Source: Balneola sp. EhC07 (GTDB taxonomy: Bacteria > Bacteroidota > Rhodothermia > Balneolales > Balneolaceae). Taken from it: a DNA stretch of 64,000 bases. Below are positions 10,819 to 63,751 of the stretch, in pieces; the stretch's first letter is position 1; each line of letters opens with the position of its first letter. The position numbers were made by a program, and so were the translations under genes. The stretch is from contig NZ_LXYG01000012.1 in NCBI RefSeq assembly GCF_001650905.1, forward strand, positions 62,001 to 126,000. The letters run 5' to 3'. Below the pieces are notes generated by a model. It did no database searches and was not told where the DNA came from. It was given only the letters and a program-made list of their open reading frames with translations.

Positions 10819-11565
10819 TTGATAGAACATCAGATCAAATTGAATTCATTTTTCGAGACTACATATTTATTTTCTTCATATTCAGCTGAGCATCTGTTCT
10901 TGCTGATCGGATTCGTAGTTTTCTTTGTGTGGTTTATTCGCTCCTTGAAACAAAAACCTGAATCGATTCAGCAAAGGATACTGCTTGTTCTCGCTCTGTT
11001 TCTTACTGTTCTGCAATTGGCAAAGATTCCTCTGAATCACTATACGGGTGTTTTTGATGTTACCAAAGATATTCCTCTGCATATGTGCAATTTCCTTCCC
11101 ATGATCATGGTTTGGGTGTATGCAACTAAAAACAGAACCGTTTGGGCTACGATCTTTTTCTGGATCATATTGGGGGTTTCCCAAGCCAATTTTACTCCTT
11201 CCGTAGAATTCTCATTATTTCATTACGATGCCATTCGGTACTGGATGGTTCACCTGATGTTGGTTTTGCTGGGGCTTTATCCTGCGATCGTCTGGGGATG
11301 GGAACTGGAATTAAAAGATGTGGGAAGATCATTTATAGCTCTGAATGTGGTAGCAGGTGTGATCTATTTTTTAAATCTGATCCTGGACAGCAATTATCTG
11401 TATGTAATGGATAAACCACCGGGAACTACTTTCTTCAGTCTGCTTCCTGAATGGCCGGTCTATATTCTGGTTCTGGAAGCGATCATCATCGTTTGGTCGC
11501 TAATGGTTTGGGGAGTTTTTAGGATGGTTAAGAGCCGTGTTGTTAATAAAAAGGCTGTTATATAA
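10819..11565 (+). CDS. TIGR02206/YwaF-family integral membrane protein
   Basis: A 248-residue polytopic membrane protein with about seven hydrophobic segments. It carries the hallmarks of the YwaF/TIGR02206 family: PLHMCNFLPM after the third segment and NYLYVMDKPPGTTFFS with LPEWPVY before the last. Function of the family is unknown. The reading frame has no ATG before residue 94, so translation most likely starts at TTG 10819 (Ile-Glu-His next), preceded by ACCGGGG. Transcription is divergent from the small basic-protein gene; the 238-base gap between them holds the start regions. A repeat-rich 576-base gap follows. Confidence 0.88.
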   Translation: MIEHQIKLNSFFETTYLFSSYSAEHLFLLIGFVVFFVWFIRSLKQKPESIQQRILLVLALFLTVLQLAKIPLNHYTGVFDVTKDIPLHMCNFLPMIMVWVYATKNRTVWATIFFWIILGVSQANFTPSVEFSLFHYDAIRYWMVHLMLVLLGLYPAIVWGWELELKDVGRSFIALNVVAGVIYFLNLILDSNYLYVMDKPPGTTFFSLLPEWPVYILVLEAIIIVWSLMVWGVFRMVKSRVVNKKAVI

Positions 11566-11719
11566 CCGTTATTACGTGGATGTCCTTTTAAACCAATCCG
11601 GATCTCGGACATACTACGCGAGATGGTCAAGATTGAGGCTTGTTCTGACCCCATCTGTCTTCCCCTTGGATAAGGGGAAGGACTTTTTAATTACATCACA
11701 ATAGTATTAAAAACCCAGG

Positions 11720-11744
11720 GTCATCCTGAACTCGTTTCAGGATC
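11720..11744 (+). repeat. GTCAT-type palindromic repeat, copy 1
   Basis: A 25-bp element starting GTCAT with stem ATCCTGAAC / GTTTCAGGAT. The same element, differing by one base, is at 63616-63640, and an inverted copy with two compensating stem changes at 63727-63751. A split version lies inside the restriction enzyme gene. Confidence 0.8.
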
Positions 11745-11867
11745 TTTGTGAGGTCTGGTAGTTTAATCAGGTCTACCGGCTCTGTTTTCTAACCCACTTA
11801 CACAAACGCAGGGCTGAAGCCCTTGCTAGCTTATGAACGAGGCTTTATTCTATCCTATGTAATTAAG

Positions 11868-11891
11868 GTCATTCCTGCGGAGGCAGGAATC
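11868..11891 (+). repeat. GTCATTCCTGC palindrome
   Basis: A 24-bp GTCAT-led palindrome with stem GATTCCTGC-like arms (ATTCCTGC / GCAGGAAT) and a GGAG loop. It shares the GTCAT start and GATC-like end with the other copies but has a different stem, so it is a sister type of the same class. Confidence 0.7.
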
Positions 11892-12141
11892 TGGATCGTC
11901 ATCACAGGCATGTTTCTCTAAACCAATCCAGATCTCGGGCATACGCCGCGAGATGACCTACTTACTCCATTCACGATCCCGAGAATTCGGAAGAAGTGAT
12001 CTCCCGAATATGTTTGGAATTTAGTTTATGGAGATTGCTTCGTCGTATGCACTCCTCGCAAAGGGCATCTCAAAATTTTACAAGCATTCCTTTCTACTGA
12101 GTTTCTCTTTCGCTATAATCCGTTGATAATAAAAGGAGAAG

Positions 12142-15100
12142 ATGATCAATTTTCAGACTAAGAAGGTTCGGCAGGGTATTAATAAAGCATATCTTAAAGT
12201 AAATGTTAAGCAGGGTGACTTAAACACGTTCAAAGATGAAGCAACAACCTACCTAAACAATCTTAAGCAAGCTCAAGGCGAAAGTGAAGAGCACTTTAAA
12301 GGGTATTTAAAAGATTTTCTACAAGATGCTTTTTATTCGAATGCAGAAAAGTTAGTGAATACCAGTGACCGAATTGATCTGGCTATTTACTCTGGAAAAT
12401 CTAAATCGACTTCTGTTGATGTAATTATTGAAGCCAAGCGACCTGATAACAAATCGGAAATGATCAGTAAGGACAAGCTGAATCAAAAAGCTTTTCAGGA
12501 AGCGCTACACTACTATTTTGATGAGCGAGAAAAAGGTAACGACAGCATCAAGCAAGTAGTAATTACCAACTATACTGAGTTTTTTATCTTCGATGCGCAG
12601 GAAATAGAACGCCTCTTCTATTCTAAGAAAAAACTGGTAAAGACCTATAAGGAATGGCAAAACGACGGAAAAGTATCAGGTAAAACAGAATTCATATACG
12701 GTAAGTTTGAAGAGTTTATAAAAAACTCAGAAGGAACGCTTACTGGAATTTATGCGGACCTGAACAATTACAAAAAGCAACTTAGCACAACAGGAGATGA
12801 AGACACCGACAAAAAGTTAATTCCTCTGTATAAACTGTTTTCGCCTGAGCATCTAACTAAAAAGAGCTTTGCCAACGATAGTAACTCTCTGGATAAAGGC
12901 TTTTATAATGAGTTGCTTCATATTCTGGGATTACAAGAAGTAAAAGAGGGAAGTAAACGACTTATTCAGCGATTATCCGAAGATGATCGCAATACAGGAT
13001 CTTTAGTAGAAAATACCATTGCCACGCTGAAGTACGATCAGCATATGAATGAAGTGCGTGACGCAAAAATCCAGTATGGTGACAGCGAAGACGATCAGTT
13101 ATTTGGTGTTGCACTGGAACTGGTAATTACCTGGGTGAACCGCGTTTTATTCTTAAAGCTGTTGGAAGCGCAGTTATTAGCGTATCATAAGTTTGATGAG
13201 AAGTTTAAGTTTTTGGTGTTTGAAGGAATCATTGATGAATATGACGAACTAAACAAGCTCTTTTTCAGAGTGCTTGCGCTAAAGAACAACGACAGACCGG
13301 AATCTTTACAAAAGAGATTCGGACATATTCCTTATCTAAATTCTTCTCTTTTTGATTCTACTACGTTAGAAAAGAAGACCATCCAAATTTCGGGACTGGA
13401 TGATAAAGCGTCACTTCCCATTTATAACCGAAGCGTATTCAGAAAAAGTGCCAATCCGCCGAAAGGCTCTCTTAATACCTTAGAATATTTACTCCGTTTT
13501 TTAGATGCCTATAACTTTAGTGCAGAAAGTTCAGGCGGAATTCAGAAGGAAGACAAAGCCCTTATAAATGCTTCAGTTCTTGGATTGATCTTCGAAAAAA
13601 TTAATGGCTATAAAGACGGTTCGTTCTTTACTCCCGGATTTATAACCGAATACATGGCTCGGGAAACGCTGCGTAAGTCGGTGGTTGACAAACTGAACGA
13701 TGCTTTTGATTGGGATTGTAAGGAATTCAATGAATTACATCGTAAAGTTGAAAGTACATCGCTTGGAGAGGTAAATGCTGTTATTAACTCCATCACTATT
13801 TGTGATCCCGCCGTGGGTTCCGGTCATTTTTTGGTGAGTTGTTTAAATGAATTGCTAGCCATAAAAGCAGAATTGAAAGTGCTTTGTGATGTGGAAGGAA
13901 AGCGCATTCCATATTTGGATATTGCAGTAGAAAACGATGAACTGGCGATCGAGCACAACGGTGAACTGTTTGAATACAAAGTAAATCACGAATGGAAGAA
14001 TGAACTTGTTGAACGAAGCCACGCCGGACAAGATCGCCAACGAATTCAAAAGGCATTATTCCACGAAAAGAGATCTCTGATAGAACACTGTTTATTCGGA
14101 GTAGATATAAACCCGAATTCAGTAAAGATCTGTCGGCTTCGTTTATGGATAGAACTACTAAAGCACGCTTATTATAAAGAAGACCGTCATGCTGAACTTG
14201 ATACTGAATCGAGTTCAGCACAGGTTTCAGCATCTGTGGAGGCTTCGAAAGAAAAATATGTCCCATTCTCCGAACTCGAAGTACTCCCCAACATAGACAT
14301 TAATATAAAGCAAGGGAATTCGCTGGTAAGTCGGTTCGGGTTAGACGAAGATCTGACGGCGATATTTAAGAAAAGCGAACACTCACTAGAAGACTACAAA
14401 CAAGCGGTAAAGAATTACAGGGAAACACGTGACCGTTCTGAAAAACAGCGCCTGCAAAAACTGATCAATGATATAAAAGAAGAGTTCTCAATTGGACTTG
14501 AGCAATTACATCCTGAACGAGTTAAGTTGAAGGAATTAATTGCTAAACATCATAAACTATCAACTCAGTTTGATATGTTTGGAGATGATATTGAGGGTGA
14601 AGCAGGATCAAGAAGAGCACGAATTAAAAAAGCAGAGCAGGAGCTTGAAAAACAACAAAATATTGTAGATGAAATGGAGGCGGGCACATTTTACCGTGAA
14701 GCCTTTGAATGGCGCTTCGAATTCCCGGAAGTGTTAGATGACAAAGGAAATTACAAAGGCTTTGATGTAGTGATTGGGAATCCGCCGTACATTCGTCAGG
14801 AAGAGTTTAAGGATATTAAAACCTTTTTAGAAAGCAAATATACTACCTATGCTGGCACGGCAGATTTATTTGTCTACTTTGTAGAATTAGCTTTTCAAAA
14901 CCTGAGAAAAAAGGGTGAATTTATTTTCATCATACCTAATAAATGGATGAGAGCAGGATATGGAAAAAACCTCAGAAATTTCCTTAAAGATTATCGCATT
15001 CAATCTATTTTGGATTTTGGGGACCTGCCTGTATTTGAAGAGGCAACAACATATCCTTGCATTCTGTCTGTTTCTAAAAACGAACCAAAAGTAGAGTTTG

Positions 15101-16080
15101 AAGCCGTAAGTATTGAAATTTTGGAATTTCCAAATGGCTTAGAAGAGTATATTAAAAGTAACAAAATAGATGTTTTAGCTAATGAATTACCTGAACAAGG
15201 TTGGGCTTTAATTGATGCTCAAGAGCAGAAATTATTAATAAAATTAAGAGGAAAAGGCATTTCACTTGGTGAGTATGTAGACGGTAAAATTTTTAGAGGA
15301 GTATTAACTGGACTTAATGAAGCTTTTATAATAGACAGTGAAAAAAGAAGTGAACTTATCCAACAAGACAGGAAAAATGAGCAAATAATAAAGAAATTTT
15401 ATTCCGGGAGAGATATAAATAAATATTCAATTAATGACAGTAATAAATACTTAACATTTTTACCATGGCATTTTCCATTACATGAAGATGAAACTATAAA
15501 TGGATCTTCTGACTTAGCAGAAAAGAATTTTAAAGCGAACTATGAACCGTTATATAAGCATATAGAAGTTTATAAGAAAAAACTTCTAAAAAGAAATAAA
15601 GCTGAAACTGGAATTAGATACGAATGGTATGCACTTCAAAGATATGCATCGTCTTACTATAAAGAGTTTGAGAAGAAAAAAATTGTTTGGCCAGAAGTTA
15701 GTAAAACAAGTTATGTTGCATTAGATGAAAGTAAAGCATTCTTAAATAAAACCTGCTTTTTTATACCTATTTCTGATCTTTATTTAGTTGGTTTATTAAA
15801 TTCAAGTTTGGTTCAATTTTATCTAGATAAAACAGTCTCGAAAATGAGGGGTGGCTACTTCTTATTAAGTGAAATCTACATGGAAAAAATTCCTATCCTT
15901 AATTTTAATAGTAATAGAAGTGAATTATTTGAATCTAAAGTCACCCAAATCCTCTCCCTCAAAAAAGAAAACCCAGAAGCCGATACTTCAAAACTAGAAG
16001 CCGAGATAGACCAACTGGTTTACGAGCTGTACGGCTTAACCGAAGAAGAAATTGCTATAGTAGAGGAGAGTGTGGGGTGA
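12142..16080 (+). CDS. Type IIG restriction-modification enzyme (Eco57I-like)
   Basis: A 1312-residue single-chain enzyme combining DNA cleavage, adenine N6-methylation and target recognition. The N-terminal nuclease part shows a PD-(D/E)XK pattern: Asp79 in DRIDLA and E97-A-K99 in VIIEAKRP. Methylase motif I is DPAVGSGHF at 555-563 and the catalytic motif IV is NPPY at 880-883 in VIGNPPYIRQEEF. The C-terminal part (about 980-1260) is the TaqI-like target-recognition region, with YSGRDINKYSI. No separate methylase or specificity gene is adjacent, as expected for this class. Two oddities: a palindromic repeat is inserted in frame near residues 682-698, and GC falls from about 40% to below 33% between roughly 15070 and 15950, the recognition region, then recovers. 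The start has a strong AAAAGGAG site. A candidate toxin-antitoxin-chaperone module follows after 65 bases. Confidence 0.92.
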   Translation: MINFQTKKVRQGINKAYLKVNVKQGDLNTFKDEATTYLNNLKQAQGESEEHFKGYLKDFLQDAFYSNAEKLVNTSDRIDLAIYSGKSKSTSVDVIIEAKRPDNKSEMISKDKLNQKAFQEALHYYFDEREKGNDSIKQVVITNYTEFFIFDAQEIERLFYSKKKLVKTYKEWQNDGKVSGKTEFIYGKFEEFIKNSEGTLTGIYADLNNYKKQLSTTGDEDTDKKLIPLYKLFSPEHLTKKSFANDSNSLDKGFYNELLHILGLQEVKEGSKRLIQRLSEDDRNTGSLVENTIATLKYDQHMNEVRDAKIQYGDSEDDQLFGVALELVITWVNRVLFLKLLEAQLLAYHKFDEKFKFLVFEGIIDEYDELNKLFFRVLALKNNDRPESLQKRFGHIPYLNSSLFDSTTLEKKTIQISGLDDKASLPIYNRSVFRKSANPPKGSLNTLEYLLRFLDAYNFSAESSGGIQKEDKALINASVLGLIFEKINGYKDGSFFTPGFITEYMARETLRKSVVDKLNDAFDWDCKEFNELHRKVESTSLGEVNAVINSITICDPAVGSGHFLVSCLNELLAIKAELKVLCDVEGKRIPYLDIAVENDELAIEHNGELFEYKVNHEWKNELVERSHAGQDRQRIQKALFHEKRSLIEHCLFGVDINPNSVKICRLRLWIELLKHAYYKEDRHAELDTESSSAQVSASVEASKEKYVPFSELEVLPNIDINIKQGNSLVSRFGLDEDLTAIFKKSEHSLEDYKQAVKNYRETRDRSEKQRLQKLINDIKEEFSIGLEQLHPERVKLKELIAKHHKLSTQFDMFGDDIEGEAGSRRARIKKAEQELEKQQNIVDEMEAGTFYREAFEWRFEFPEVLDDKGNYKGFDVVIGNPPYIRQEEFKDIKTFLESKYTTYAGTADLFVYFVELAFQNLRKKGEFIFIIPNKWMRAGYGKNLRNFLKDYRIQSILDFGDLPVFEEATTYPCILSVSKNEPKVEFEAVSIEILEFPNGLEEYIKSNKIDVLANELPEQGWALIDAQEQKLLIKLRGKGISLGEYVDGKIFRGVLTGLNEAFIIDSEKRSELIQQDRKNEQIIKKFYSGRDINKYSINDSNKYLTFLPWHFPLHEDETINGSSDLAEKNFKANYEPLYKHIEVYKKKLLKRNKAETGIRYEWYALQRYASSYYKEFEKKKIVWPEVSKTSYVALDESKAFLNKTCFFIPISDLYLVGLLNSSLVQFYLDKTVSKMRGGYFLLSEIYMEKIPILNFNSNRSELFESKVTQILSLKKENPEADTSKLEAEIDQLVYELYGLTEEEIAIVEESVG
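14186..14234 (+). repeat. GTCAT-type palindrome embedded in the restriction gene
   Basis: GTCATGCTGAACTTG (14186-14200) and GGTTTCAGCATC (14223-14234) are the two halves of the same GTCAT palindrome seen in the intergenic gaps, separated by a 22-base insert that itself contains GTTCAGC (14213-14219), able to pair with GCTGAAC (14191-14197). Stem changes relative to intergenic copies are compensated on the other arm. The frame stays open and encodes RHAELDTESSSAQVSAS, a low-complexity stretch between two conserved methylase blocks (RLWIELLKHAYY and LEVLPNIDINIKQGNSL). Confidence 0.75.
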
Positions 16081-16113
16081 TGATGCGATTAAGGAACGTT
16101 ATTAATAAAATAA

Positions 16114-16131
16114 TTGTCAATTTATTGACAA
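16114..16131. promoter_or_regulatory. Inverted repeat before the toxin-antitoxin genes
   Basis: TTGTCAA (16114-16120), four bases, TTGACAA (16125-16131), 14 bases before the first gene of the candidate TAC operon. Such a dyad is where an XRE-type antitoxin would be expected to bind for autoregulation. The second half also resembles a -35 TTGACA but the spacing to the ATG is too short for that use. Confidence 0.45.
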
Positions 16132-16145
16132 ATGCACTATTTTAG

Positions 16146-16637
16146 ATGACTTTTTCGTTTAACATAGTGCCATTTTATGAAGGAAAAAGAGCAAACTTCT
16201 ATACAATTATTATCGAAGGTGAAGAATTACCTGAAGGAGATAAATTTTTGAGCAATGAAAGAGTTAATACAAACTCTCATTTTAATAAATTGAAACAAGT
16301 CTTTTTCAACTTATTGAATCGTTTTGGGGCAAGACAACAATTTTTTAAAGATGAAGGTCTTGCAGGCGACATGGTAAATGCCTTTTACGTAAGGAGAGGT
16401 AATTTAAGATGGTATTGCTTAAGATGGAGCGAGCAAATGGTAATATTTGGTAATGGTGGAGTAAAAACTGTTAGAGCAACTCAAGACGACCCATATTTAA
16501 AGAATTGTGAATACTCGTTAAGATGGATAGACAAATGCCTTACTATTGCCCTTAAAGAAGGAAAGATTTCAGTATCAGGAGATGGGAAACTTTCCGGTGA
16601 TTTGAGGTTTAACAAAGAAGATTACATTAATCTATAG
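16146..16637 (+). CDS. Candidate toxin of a toxin-antitoxin-chaperone module
   Basis: A 163-residue protein I do not recognise by family. Its C-terminal half has a RelE/HigB-like pattern: a helix (about 46-62), then FYVRRGNLRWYCLRW and a strand pair ending MVIFGNGGVKTVRA, followed by a helical stretch with basic residues. It is the first gene of a tight three-gene operon: 4 bases to an XRE-type antitoxin gene and 8 bases from that to a SecB-like gene. Toxin-first order with an HTH antitoxin is the HigBA arrangement. The N-terminal 60 residues are longer than in classical RelE toxins. Composition is AT-rich, pointing to transfer. The toxin role is inferred from context and weak fold resemblance only. 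Confidence 0.6.
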   Translation: MTFSFNIVPFYEGKRANFYTIIIEGEELPEGDKFLSNERVNTNSHFNKLKQVFFNLLNRFGARQQFFKDEGLAGDMVNAFYVRRGNLRWYCLRWSEQMVIFGNGGVKTVRATQDDPYLKNCEYSLRWIDKCLTIALKEGKISVSGDGKLSGDLRFNKEDYINL

Positions 16638-16641
16638 CGTT

Positions 16642-17115
16642 ATGGATATTAATAAAAGCAAACAAATTAGAGATAGCTTTGAAGCCCTTGAGGTTGAAGA
16701 AAGTCGATTTGTGGACAATCAAATGTTTGTTGCAGCACAAATCCAAAATGGTTTGGAAAGAAAAGGTTGGTCACAAAATAAATTATCAAGAGAATCAGGT
16801 TTGAATGAAAATGTGATTCGTCAAATAATAGCAGGCGAAGGAAATCCAACGCTAAAAACAATCTCAGCAATAGAACAGGCTTTAAATGAAGAAGTTATTG
16901 TGGCTCCGGACTTCTTTATGGAAGAGTTAGAAGAGAAAGGGGTTATTATCAGTGAATCGAACTATATGGATTTTTCATTTAGATATACTGAAGAACTATC
17001 AAGTTCTATGTTTGCGGAAGGAGCTGAGTATTCTTTTGAGTTCAATAAAAAAAATAGAGATCAAGTAGAATATATACCATCTGATAACATGCATTTATTG
17101 CCAAAAGCCAGCTAA
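16642..17115 (+). CDS. XRE-family HTH antitoxin with long C-terminal tail
   Basis: A 157-residue protein with a clear XRE/Cro helix-turn-helix at about 43-82 (WSQNKLSRESGLNENVIRQI, then GNPTLKTISAIEQAL). This is the HigA type of antitoxin DNA-binding domain, probably binding the dyad at 16114-16131. After the HTH comes a tail of about 70 residues rich in aromatic and exposed hydrophobic residues (YMDFSFRYTEEL, FAEGAEYSFEF, VEYIPSDNMHLLP). In known toxin-antitoxin-chaperone systems such a tail is the chaperone-addiction region recognised by a SecB-like protein, and a SecB-like gene follows 8 bases downstream. The first 40 residues form a helical extension. Role as antitoxin is inferred from domain and operon. 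Confidence 0.75.
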   Translation: MDINKSKQIRDSFEALEVEESRFVDNQMFVAAQIQNGLERKGWSQNKLSRESGLNENVIRQIIAGEGNPTLKTISAIEQALNEEVIVAPDFFMEELEEKGVIISESNYMDFSFRYTEELSSSMFAEGAEYSFEFNKKNRDQVEYIPSDNMHLLPKAS

Positions 17116-17123
17116 TTAGAAGA

Positions 17124-17570
17124 ATGGAAAAAAAATTAAGTTTTGGTTTAGATTCTTTCAAAGTAAAATCTTTTCGGTTTGATTCAACGGAGAAGACAAT
17201 TCGGAAGGATCGTATAAATTTTGATATTCAGTTAAATATCAAATCAAAAAAAGGCGAAAGAAAATGTACTGTGTTTTTTCGCATTGAGGCGAAGCATGGA
17301 AAGCAACAACCAATTAGCTTAGGTGTCATCGAGACAGAAACAATTTATAATCTTATTGGTGAAATACCTTACAATGAAGAAACAGATTCTATACAGTTAC
17401 CTAACGATCTAATTGTTACGTTTGTATCAATAGGATATTCAACCACAAGAGGAGCTTTATTAGTAAAAGCTCAATCCACGATACTTGCAGATGCTCCACT
17501 GCCCATTATTGATCCAGTGAAGCTTTGGGAGCATTTTAAAAATCAAAAAAGCGAAAAAAAATCAGGTTAA
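17124..17570 (+). CDS. SecB-like chaperone, third gene of the module
   Basis: A 148-residue protein that I read as SecB-fold: alternating beta strands (INFDIQLNIKS, RKCTVFFRIEA, ISLGVIETETIYNL) followed by a helix turn and the C-terminal block TTRGALLVKAQSTILADAPLPIIDP with KLWEHF. This closely mirrors the SecB end, where a SRG motif is followed by a proline-bearing loop and a NFDALF-type helix. General SecB is a tetrameric export chaperone; SecB-like proteins encoded third in TA operons (as in M. tuberculosis Rv1955-1957) instead protect the antitoxin. Operon position, small spacing and the aromatic antitoxin tail fit that use. Similarity was judged by eye. Low GC. Confidence 0.6.
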   Translation: MEKKLSFGLDSFKVKSFRFDSTEKTIRKDRINFDIQLNIKSKKGERKCTVFFRIEAKHGKQQPISLGVIETETIYNLIGEIPYNEETDSIQLPNDLIVTFVSIGYSTTRGALLVKAQSTILADAPLPIIDPVKLWEHFKNQKSEKKSG

Positions 17571-17683
17571 TTACTTGATACACACCCCCCAAACCTTCAA
17601 TAACCCATCCGGCATTTACTAAACTGATCGCGGTTTCCTGAGCTTTTTCGCTGGATTAAAAAAGACGGGCGACTCTACTAAAA

Positions 17684-63615: not shown

Positions 63616-63640
63616 GTCATCCTGAACTTGTTTCAGGATC
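63616..63640 (+). repeat. GTCAT-type palindromic repeat, copy 3
   Basis: 25 bp, one base different from 11720-11744. Stem ATCCTGAAC / GTTTCAGGAT. Confidence 0.8.
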
Positions 63641-63726
63641 TTACGCCATGGCTCTATTTTTTCAATTGATGTGAATAGTCTTTGTTCAAATTTATTGCGG
63701 CTATCTAAGAATTTGGTCTCTACAAA

Positions 63727-63751
63727 GATCCCGAAACAAGTTCGGGATGAC
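63727..63751 (-). repeat. GTCAT-type palindromic repeat, copy 4 (inverted)
   Basis: Reverse complement begins GTCATCCCGAACTTG. It differs from copy 3 by two changes, T to C and A to G, that fall opposite each other in the stem and keep pairing. Confidence 0.8.

Follow-up and report, generated by a model that had tools for sequence, protein, structure and literature searches.

A dispersed palindromic repeat inserted in frame in a Balneola type IIG restriction gene, with a GIY-YIG nuclease as its possible mobiliser

Palindromic elements inserted in frame in protein genes are known from Rickettsia (PMC2229807, PMC3733652), where these Rickettsia palindromic elements (RPEs) are described as measuring 105-146 bp and being specific to the genus (Ogata 2000, reviewed in PMC2229807). 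CGTC-tagged REPs also have intragenic members; Bacteroidetes are among their hosts and no association with a transposase was reported for them (PMC3733652). Each has an 8-9 bp stem whose first pairs are A-T and T-A, a loop of 4-5 nt, an unpaired CGTC tag and a 3-nt tail that is CCA in most cases, not all, and most form head-to-head dimers (PMC3733652). The enzyme that spreads them was left open in 2013 (PMC3733652). For other REPs, mobilisation by RAYTs is the leading model (PMC3116915, PMC3733652). The repeat reported here is closest to the RPEs and the CGTC-type REPs.

The window, a 64,000-nt stretch, belongs to a 3.62-Mb draft genome of the Balneolaceae, a family that also includes Fodinibius sediminis (search and tree). 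We identified in it a gene whose product has the Pfam domains DUF7149, DUF7814, Eco57I and TaqI_C and matches the PADLOC model REase_MTase_IIG PDLC03612 (E=3e-277; Table 1). Residues D79, E97 and K99 and the motifs DPAVGSGHF and NPPY are conserved, and the catalytic columns are invariant across the homologue alignment. Judged by these intact motifs, the product is a type IIG enzyme, with predicted nuclease, methylase and specificity parts in a single chain. The homologues, sampled as the returns of a pattern scan and an order-level search, come from Balneolota, Bacteroidota, Cyanobacteria, Desulfobacterota, Myxococcota and Pseudomonadota. The predicted fold of the methylase part matches the BrxX/PglX and CamA adenine methyltransferases. 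Three small genes 3' of the restriction gene (16146-17570) match the PADLOC candidate defence models PDC-M64B/C, and together with it they possibly form a defence island.

Table 1. Positions of the restriction gene, the parts of its palindromic repeat and related intergenic copies in the window
Feature	Position	Strand	Basis
Type IIG restriction enzyme-methyltransferase gene, 1312 aa, Eco57I-type	12142..16080	+	Pfam and PADLOC
Codons of RLRLWIELLK, helix before the insertion loop	14134..14163	+	AlphaFold2 helix 210-225 = residues 658-673; invariant columns
In-frame palindromic repeat (composite REP with tail), peptide R682-S702	14186..14246	+	Family match; absent from homologues
Left part of outer palindrome, GTCATGCTGAACTT	14186..14199	+	83 genome matches of left half
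24-nt nested unit, core ATACTGAATCGAGTTCAGCACA at 14201-14222	14200..14223	+	Dispersed repeat itself
Right part of outer palindrome, GTTTCAGCATCT	14224..14235	+	Family comparison
Tail, GTGGAGGCTTC	14236..14246	+	Matches subterminal sequence of the family's left end
Codons of strand after the insertion loop, residues 722-724	14305..14313	+	AlphaFold2 strand 274-276
Intergenic copy of the in-gene repeat's family	11720..11745	+	Pattern scan, family comparison
Intergenic repeat, one arm of head-to-head pair after gltX	63616..63641	+	
Second arm of head-to-head pair after gltX	63726..63751	-	

A preliminary description of this DNA had placed the two halves of a palindrome, GTCATGCTGAACTT and GTTTCAGCATCT, within coding sequence whose frame stays open, and both statements hold: the halves lie inside the ORF 12142-16080 (+), which is uninterrupted. 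Joined to each other, they make an exact 26-nt unit of a repeat family with the consensus GTCATCCTGAACTTGTTTCAGGATCT, and the ATGCTGAA/TTCAGCAT stem of the in-gene copy recurs in three other complete copies. The whole repeat reads GTCATGCTGAACTT + GATACTGAATCGAGTTCAGCACAG + GTTTCAGCATCT + GTGGAGGCTTC, is 49-61 bp long and encodes the 21-residue peptide RHAELDTESSSAQVSASVEAS (R682-S702). Its tail has equivalents at other copies, for example TTTGTGGAG and TTTGTGAGGCTTC. The fold energy is low for its composition (z = -3.1), with 0 of 200 shuffles equally stable. The halves had been described as split by 22 bases that add a further pairing arm. A 22-nt core is real, but the interruption is better delimited as 24 nt (14200-14223), or eight codons; the middle piece is indeed palindromic, and it is more than an extra arm, being a second, nested repeat.

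The left half of the outer palindrome, searched as GTCATNCTGAACTNG with at most one mismatch, has 83 matches genome-wide versus 2 for the control. In the window alone, a loose pattern gave 11 matches versus 6.7 expected, which is not above chance; the evidence for the repeat is genome-wide. In genome stretches taken from around the repeats, we read about 80 complete units and computed stem statistics over 85 copies. The family stem is ATCCTGAA/TTCAGGAT, with the first pairs, A-T and T-A, paired in 99% of the 85 copies. One stem pair occurs as C-G (72), T-A (5) or G-C (3) and a second as T-A (44) or C-G (39), which bears out the earlier statement that base-pair changes between copies are compensated. 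The loop is CTTGT in 59 of 85 copies. GTC is preceded by G in 53 of 80 copies and by C in 24 of 80, the in-gene copy having CGTC, and the bases 3' of the stem are CTT in most copies. About a dozen head-to-head pairs of 105-113 bp and several longer ones occur alongside many singlets.

The nested core ATACTGAATCGAGTTCAGCACA is itself dispersed: with at most two mismatches, it has 35 copies across 7 of 8 genus genomes, and the reversed-pattern control has 0. In the majority of them the core is enclosed by the same outer palindrome, as GATCCTGAAACA[22 nt]TGGTTCAGGATGAC, and compared with this common form the inner unit of the window copy is inverted relative to the outer one. Another nested form occurs in the relative L232, and two repeats of this genome have CCGCCAGCTGGCGG. 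Together, the nested forms point to one palindrome having probably inserted at the apex of another.

An ordinary low-complexity loop expansion could resemble the repeat by chance, and loop length does vary in this enzyme family, in which some long loops are not palindromic. However, the outer left half and the inner 22 nt match genome repeats far beyond their controls (83 vs 2; 35 vs 0), and the outer right half and the tail also match the family. On these counts we rejected chance resemblance, which is extremely improbable.

The same palindrome was also sought in other coding genes of the genome, among ORFs of at least 120 aa, and no second genuine in-gene copy was found. The sole other ORF with a repeat pair, a 225-aa frame antisense to gltX, lacks a Pfam match and was discarded as spurious. 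A search for Rfam families over 11000-17600 returned none. For the intergenic copies, no clean empty site was found in the C14 region, which is a mosaic of repeats. Further repeats were noted in passing. A second palindrome subfamily is represented just upstream of the enzyme gene (11868-11957) by two head-to-head copies, GTCATTCCTGCGGAGGCAGGAATCT plus GTCATCTCGCGGCGTATGCCCGAGATCT on the other strand, a kind that flanks a GIY-YIG gene in a genus-mate (L234). A repeat of ~200 bp (L073:10404-10610, G000:C14) has many copies of ~90% identity in most genus genomes, often beside palindromes. A recurrent sequence, ACACTGAATCAAGTTCAGCGCATGCTCGTTTGTAGC, flanked by TATAACAAGC and TTTTAACTA, occurs at G000:C18:148873, C18:149969 and C17:399429 (L270, L274), and these sites resemble integron attC sites.

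Homologues differ at the position of the in-gene repeat. Residues ~682-708 are missing in many of them, with ELLKHAYYKES joined directly to LEVLPNID, and many have just 6-9 residues between RLWIELLKNAYY and LExLPNID. Since relatives lack the R682-S702 peptide, it is an insertion, as the preliminary description had expected for residues about 680-705; none of the sampled homologues carries the peptide. The absence from many homologues, the match to a genomic repeat and the preserved frame and catalytic motifs mean that the in-gene repeat behaves like an RPE, a likeness already drawn in that description. In-frame insertion of a dispersed repeat into the type IIG gene is almost certain. In an AlphaFold2 model of residues 449-995 (pLDDT 77, pTM 0.79), pLDDT falls below 50 at residues 683-708, between the RLRLWIELLK helix and the next strand. 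In this model the repeat falls within a methylase-domain loop that is predicted to be disordered and lies outside the catalytic motifs, and from the general topology of class I methyltransferases it would follow that the loop lies away from the active site.

The same loop holds unrelated inserts, many of them palindromic, in homologues from Balneolota, Bacteroidota, Cyanobacteria and Desulfobacterota. In a genus-mate (L014) it contains a 69-nt two-ended GTCAT element, and in two family members (L008, L002) a single unit read from the other strand as IPDQVRDDN and its like. L002 has an extra 51-nt in-frame insert that is absent from L008; TTTCTCCCT stands on both sides of it, and L008 has one copy. 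Algoriphagus and Belliella loops contain AGACCTGYCAGGTTTTGAAAACCTGRCAGGTCT, a Dolichospermum loop CCCCTCTCCT..AGGAGAGGGG, and further homologues CTCCCC/GGGGAG palindromes. The loop of L023 accommodates an entire DUF559 nuclease domain, in frame and flanked on either side by a short GC-rich palindrome, and in L024 a DUF559 domain lies between CCCTCTCCCC-type palindromes at a second site near residue 520. In a census over the whole gene, the methylase loop emerged as the principal site filled by repeats. Geobacteraceae-like homologues have a second, smaller site near residue 979, where L142, L144, L151, L152 and L163 carry repeat-like inserts (PSPSGRGG, PPSPPYQGG). Separately, the non-palindromic inserts in the loops of L119, L122 and L131 share a motif like SSPVCYAxxEELRDEYK.

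We compared 31 long-loop homologues (loops of 30-100 aa; long-loop threshold set, by our choice, at 33 residues from the R of RLWIELL to the D of LPNID) with their own genes. The insert fold is stabler than 95% of same-length windows of the gene in 19 of the 31, and a perfect stem exceeds the same level in 16, where about 1.6 would be expected in each case; 12 of the 31 are not palindromic beyond their own gene's background. Two insert families were searched for in their own genomes. The AGACCTG palindrome occurs elsewhere in most genomes tested, at 2-14 sites, and the CCCCTCTCC palindrome likewise at 0-5 sites, with controls of 0 for both. A FastTree tree was built from 92 homologues after removal of the loop; on it, 21 inserts require 18 changes (gain and loss not separated), at least 14 of them forced by supported branches, and the inserts cluster no more than shuffled labels. 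Near filled/empty pairs were found in Dolichospermum and its kin (L168/L164, L136/L161). The close Dolichospermum genes with and without an insert, L168 and L164, show recent change at the loop. The methylase loop is thereby shown to have been invaded many times by other palindromic repeats.

That one loop is lengthened again and again in many lineages would suit an adaptive role, the peptide having been recruited as a linker or regulatory segment. But the inserts are unrelated in sequence and length, ranging from a few to ~200 residues, many are like genomic repeats, the loop is predicted to be disordered and many relatives do without an insert; we consider recruitment improbable. In-gene copies would survive only if they leave the frame open and the loop can take additional residues, and for this reason the peptide is most likely near-neutral. 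We have good confidence that it is a passenger of the enzyme.

The palindrome also forms the inverted ends of an element of ~400 bp that encodes a GIY-YIG nuclease of ~100 aa, in this genome and in many relatives. Of the 11 GIY-YIG genes in the genome, six are flanked left and right by the palindrome, or its variant, in inverted orientation. Four copies (C2, C17, C19 and C20), each with a palindromic end on either side, are 93-100% alike. In C20 the two ends are retained and the right flank is different; the other three share flanks, so part of the copy number reflects larger duplications. Because the sample from relatives was ranked by similarity to a repeat-flanked gene, other GIY-YIG subfamilies and random positions served as controls. 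The palindrome was found within 250 bp at 29 of 43 subfamily loci, 25 of them on both sides (background 2.3%, Fisher p 5e-25), and flanking inverted repeats were beyond the 99th percentile at 24 of the 43. Among the best-scoring GIY-YIG genes of the bacterial family, mostly from other subfamilies, 3 of 29 had it. At loci sampled outside the bacterial family, the palindrome is present on one or both sides in 9 or 10 of 13. Many of these loci conserve a TGTAAGG...GTCTTAC pair located 5' of the GIY-YIG gene. Nuclease-gene fragments adjoin repeats, and repeat pairs of 207-209 bp retain homology to the ends of the element. The shorter pairs and the fragments look as in putative miniature (deletion) derivatives of the GIY-YIG element.

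Other nuclease and transposase genes also lie between palindromes. Three of the five DUF559 genes of the genome (L042, L043, L045) are between CCCTCC/GGAGGG-type palindromes, a different family from that of the GIY-YIG element, and two Y1 (IS200-like) transposase genes (L047, L048) are between yet other inverted palindromes, GCGAATACCTGAAGGAATTCGC and ACCAGCGAGGATTTTAATCCG. RAYT-type (Y1, IS200-like) transposases might move the Balneola repeats as for GTAG-type REPs, with GIY-YIG genes just landing in repeat pairs, and beyond the standing of that model for other REPs (PMC3116915, PMC3733652) there are six Y1_Tnp matches in the genome. The palindrome is, however, absent within 1.5 kb of all six genes, two of which have other palindromes at their borders, and the near-identical GIY-YIG copies with palindromic ends, one of them with a differing right flank, also argue against it. 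Mobilisation by such transposases is unlikely.

The repeats might also be immobile RNA-level elements, terminators or regulatory hairpins, propagated through recombination and gene conversion. The majority of copies are intergenic and form hairpins, and some are in duplicated flanking segments; but the in-frame gene insertions on many separate branches and the nuclease-bearing copies with different flanks indicate mobility, and we give this explanation little chance. The best overall explanation, to which we assign a probability of about 80%, is that a solo repeat was inserted into the restriction gene, the palindromes being selfish end-sequences or miniature derivatives of the GIY-YIG element that the nuclease would move by nicking or cleavage followed by repair. 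As a separate question, the odds that the GIY-YIG nuclease is the mobiliser of the palindrome seem about even; it may instead be carried along as a passenger, or be a homing gene with repeat pairs as its targets.

In-gene palindromic repeats were already known, and a specific nuclease between repeats is the addition made here. With such a nuclease between repeats, in several near-identical copies and in many genera, the question of the enzyme behind CGTC-type REPs becomes directly testable. The repeatedly invaded methylase loop is a natural record of insertions that a protein will tolerate, and engineering studies of restriction enzymes could use it as a candidate tolerant site. Somewhat more tentatively, GIY-YIG may be the missing mobiliser of CGTC-like REPs and form, with DUF559, parallel "palindrome plus nuclease" systems, with the methylase loop as a cross-phyla safe harbour that records insertions. 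A literature search, with most subscription journals outside its reach, returned no description of a GIY-YIG partner of REPs or palindromic repeats. The mostly open-access literature likewise gave no report of the methylase loop as a hotspot or of DUF559 with repeats, and no description of the repeat sequences or the HAELVSAS peptide.

As with the RPEs, the Balneola repeats are dispersed palindromes of which one is in frame in a conserved protein gene, with the frame open and the addition apparently tolerated by the protein. In contrast to the RPEs, from which the described size and host set it apart, the in-gene repeat is 49-61 bp long and in a Balneolaceae host; a second repeat is nested in it, one of its relatives bears a nuclease, and the loop that it occupies is a recurrent target. 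The Balneola family shares with the CGTC-type REPs an 8-bp stem beginning AT, a 5-nt loop and an intragenic member. The likeness is weaker in the tag before the stem, which is CGTC in the in-gene copy and more often has G than C in the family, and some copies pair head to head while many are singlets. The family differs in that the 3' tail is CTT, not CCA, and in having a GIY-YIG gene between repeats, whereas CGTC REPs were reported without a transposase (PMC3733652). Paired inverted REPs, here often of 105-113 bp, as the likely replicative unit, with singlets as remnants, are shared with the REPIN/RAYT system (PMC3116915); unlike that system, the Balneola repeats occur with a GIY-YIG nuclease in multi-copy elements, not with a single-copy Y1 tyrosine transposase.
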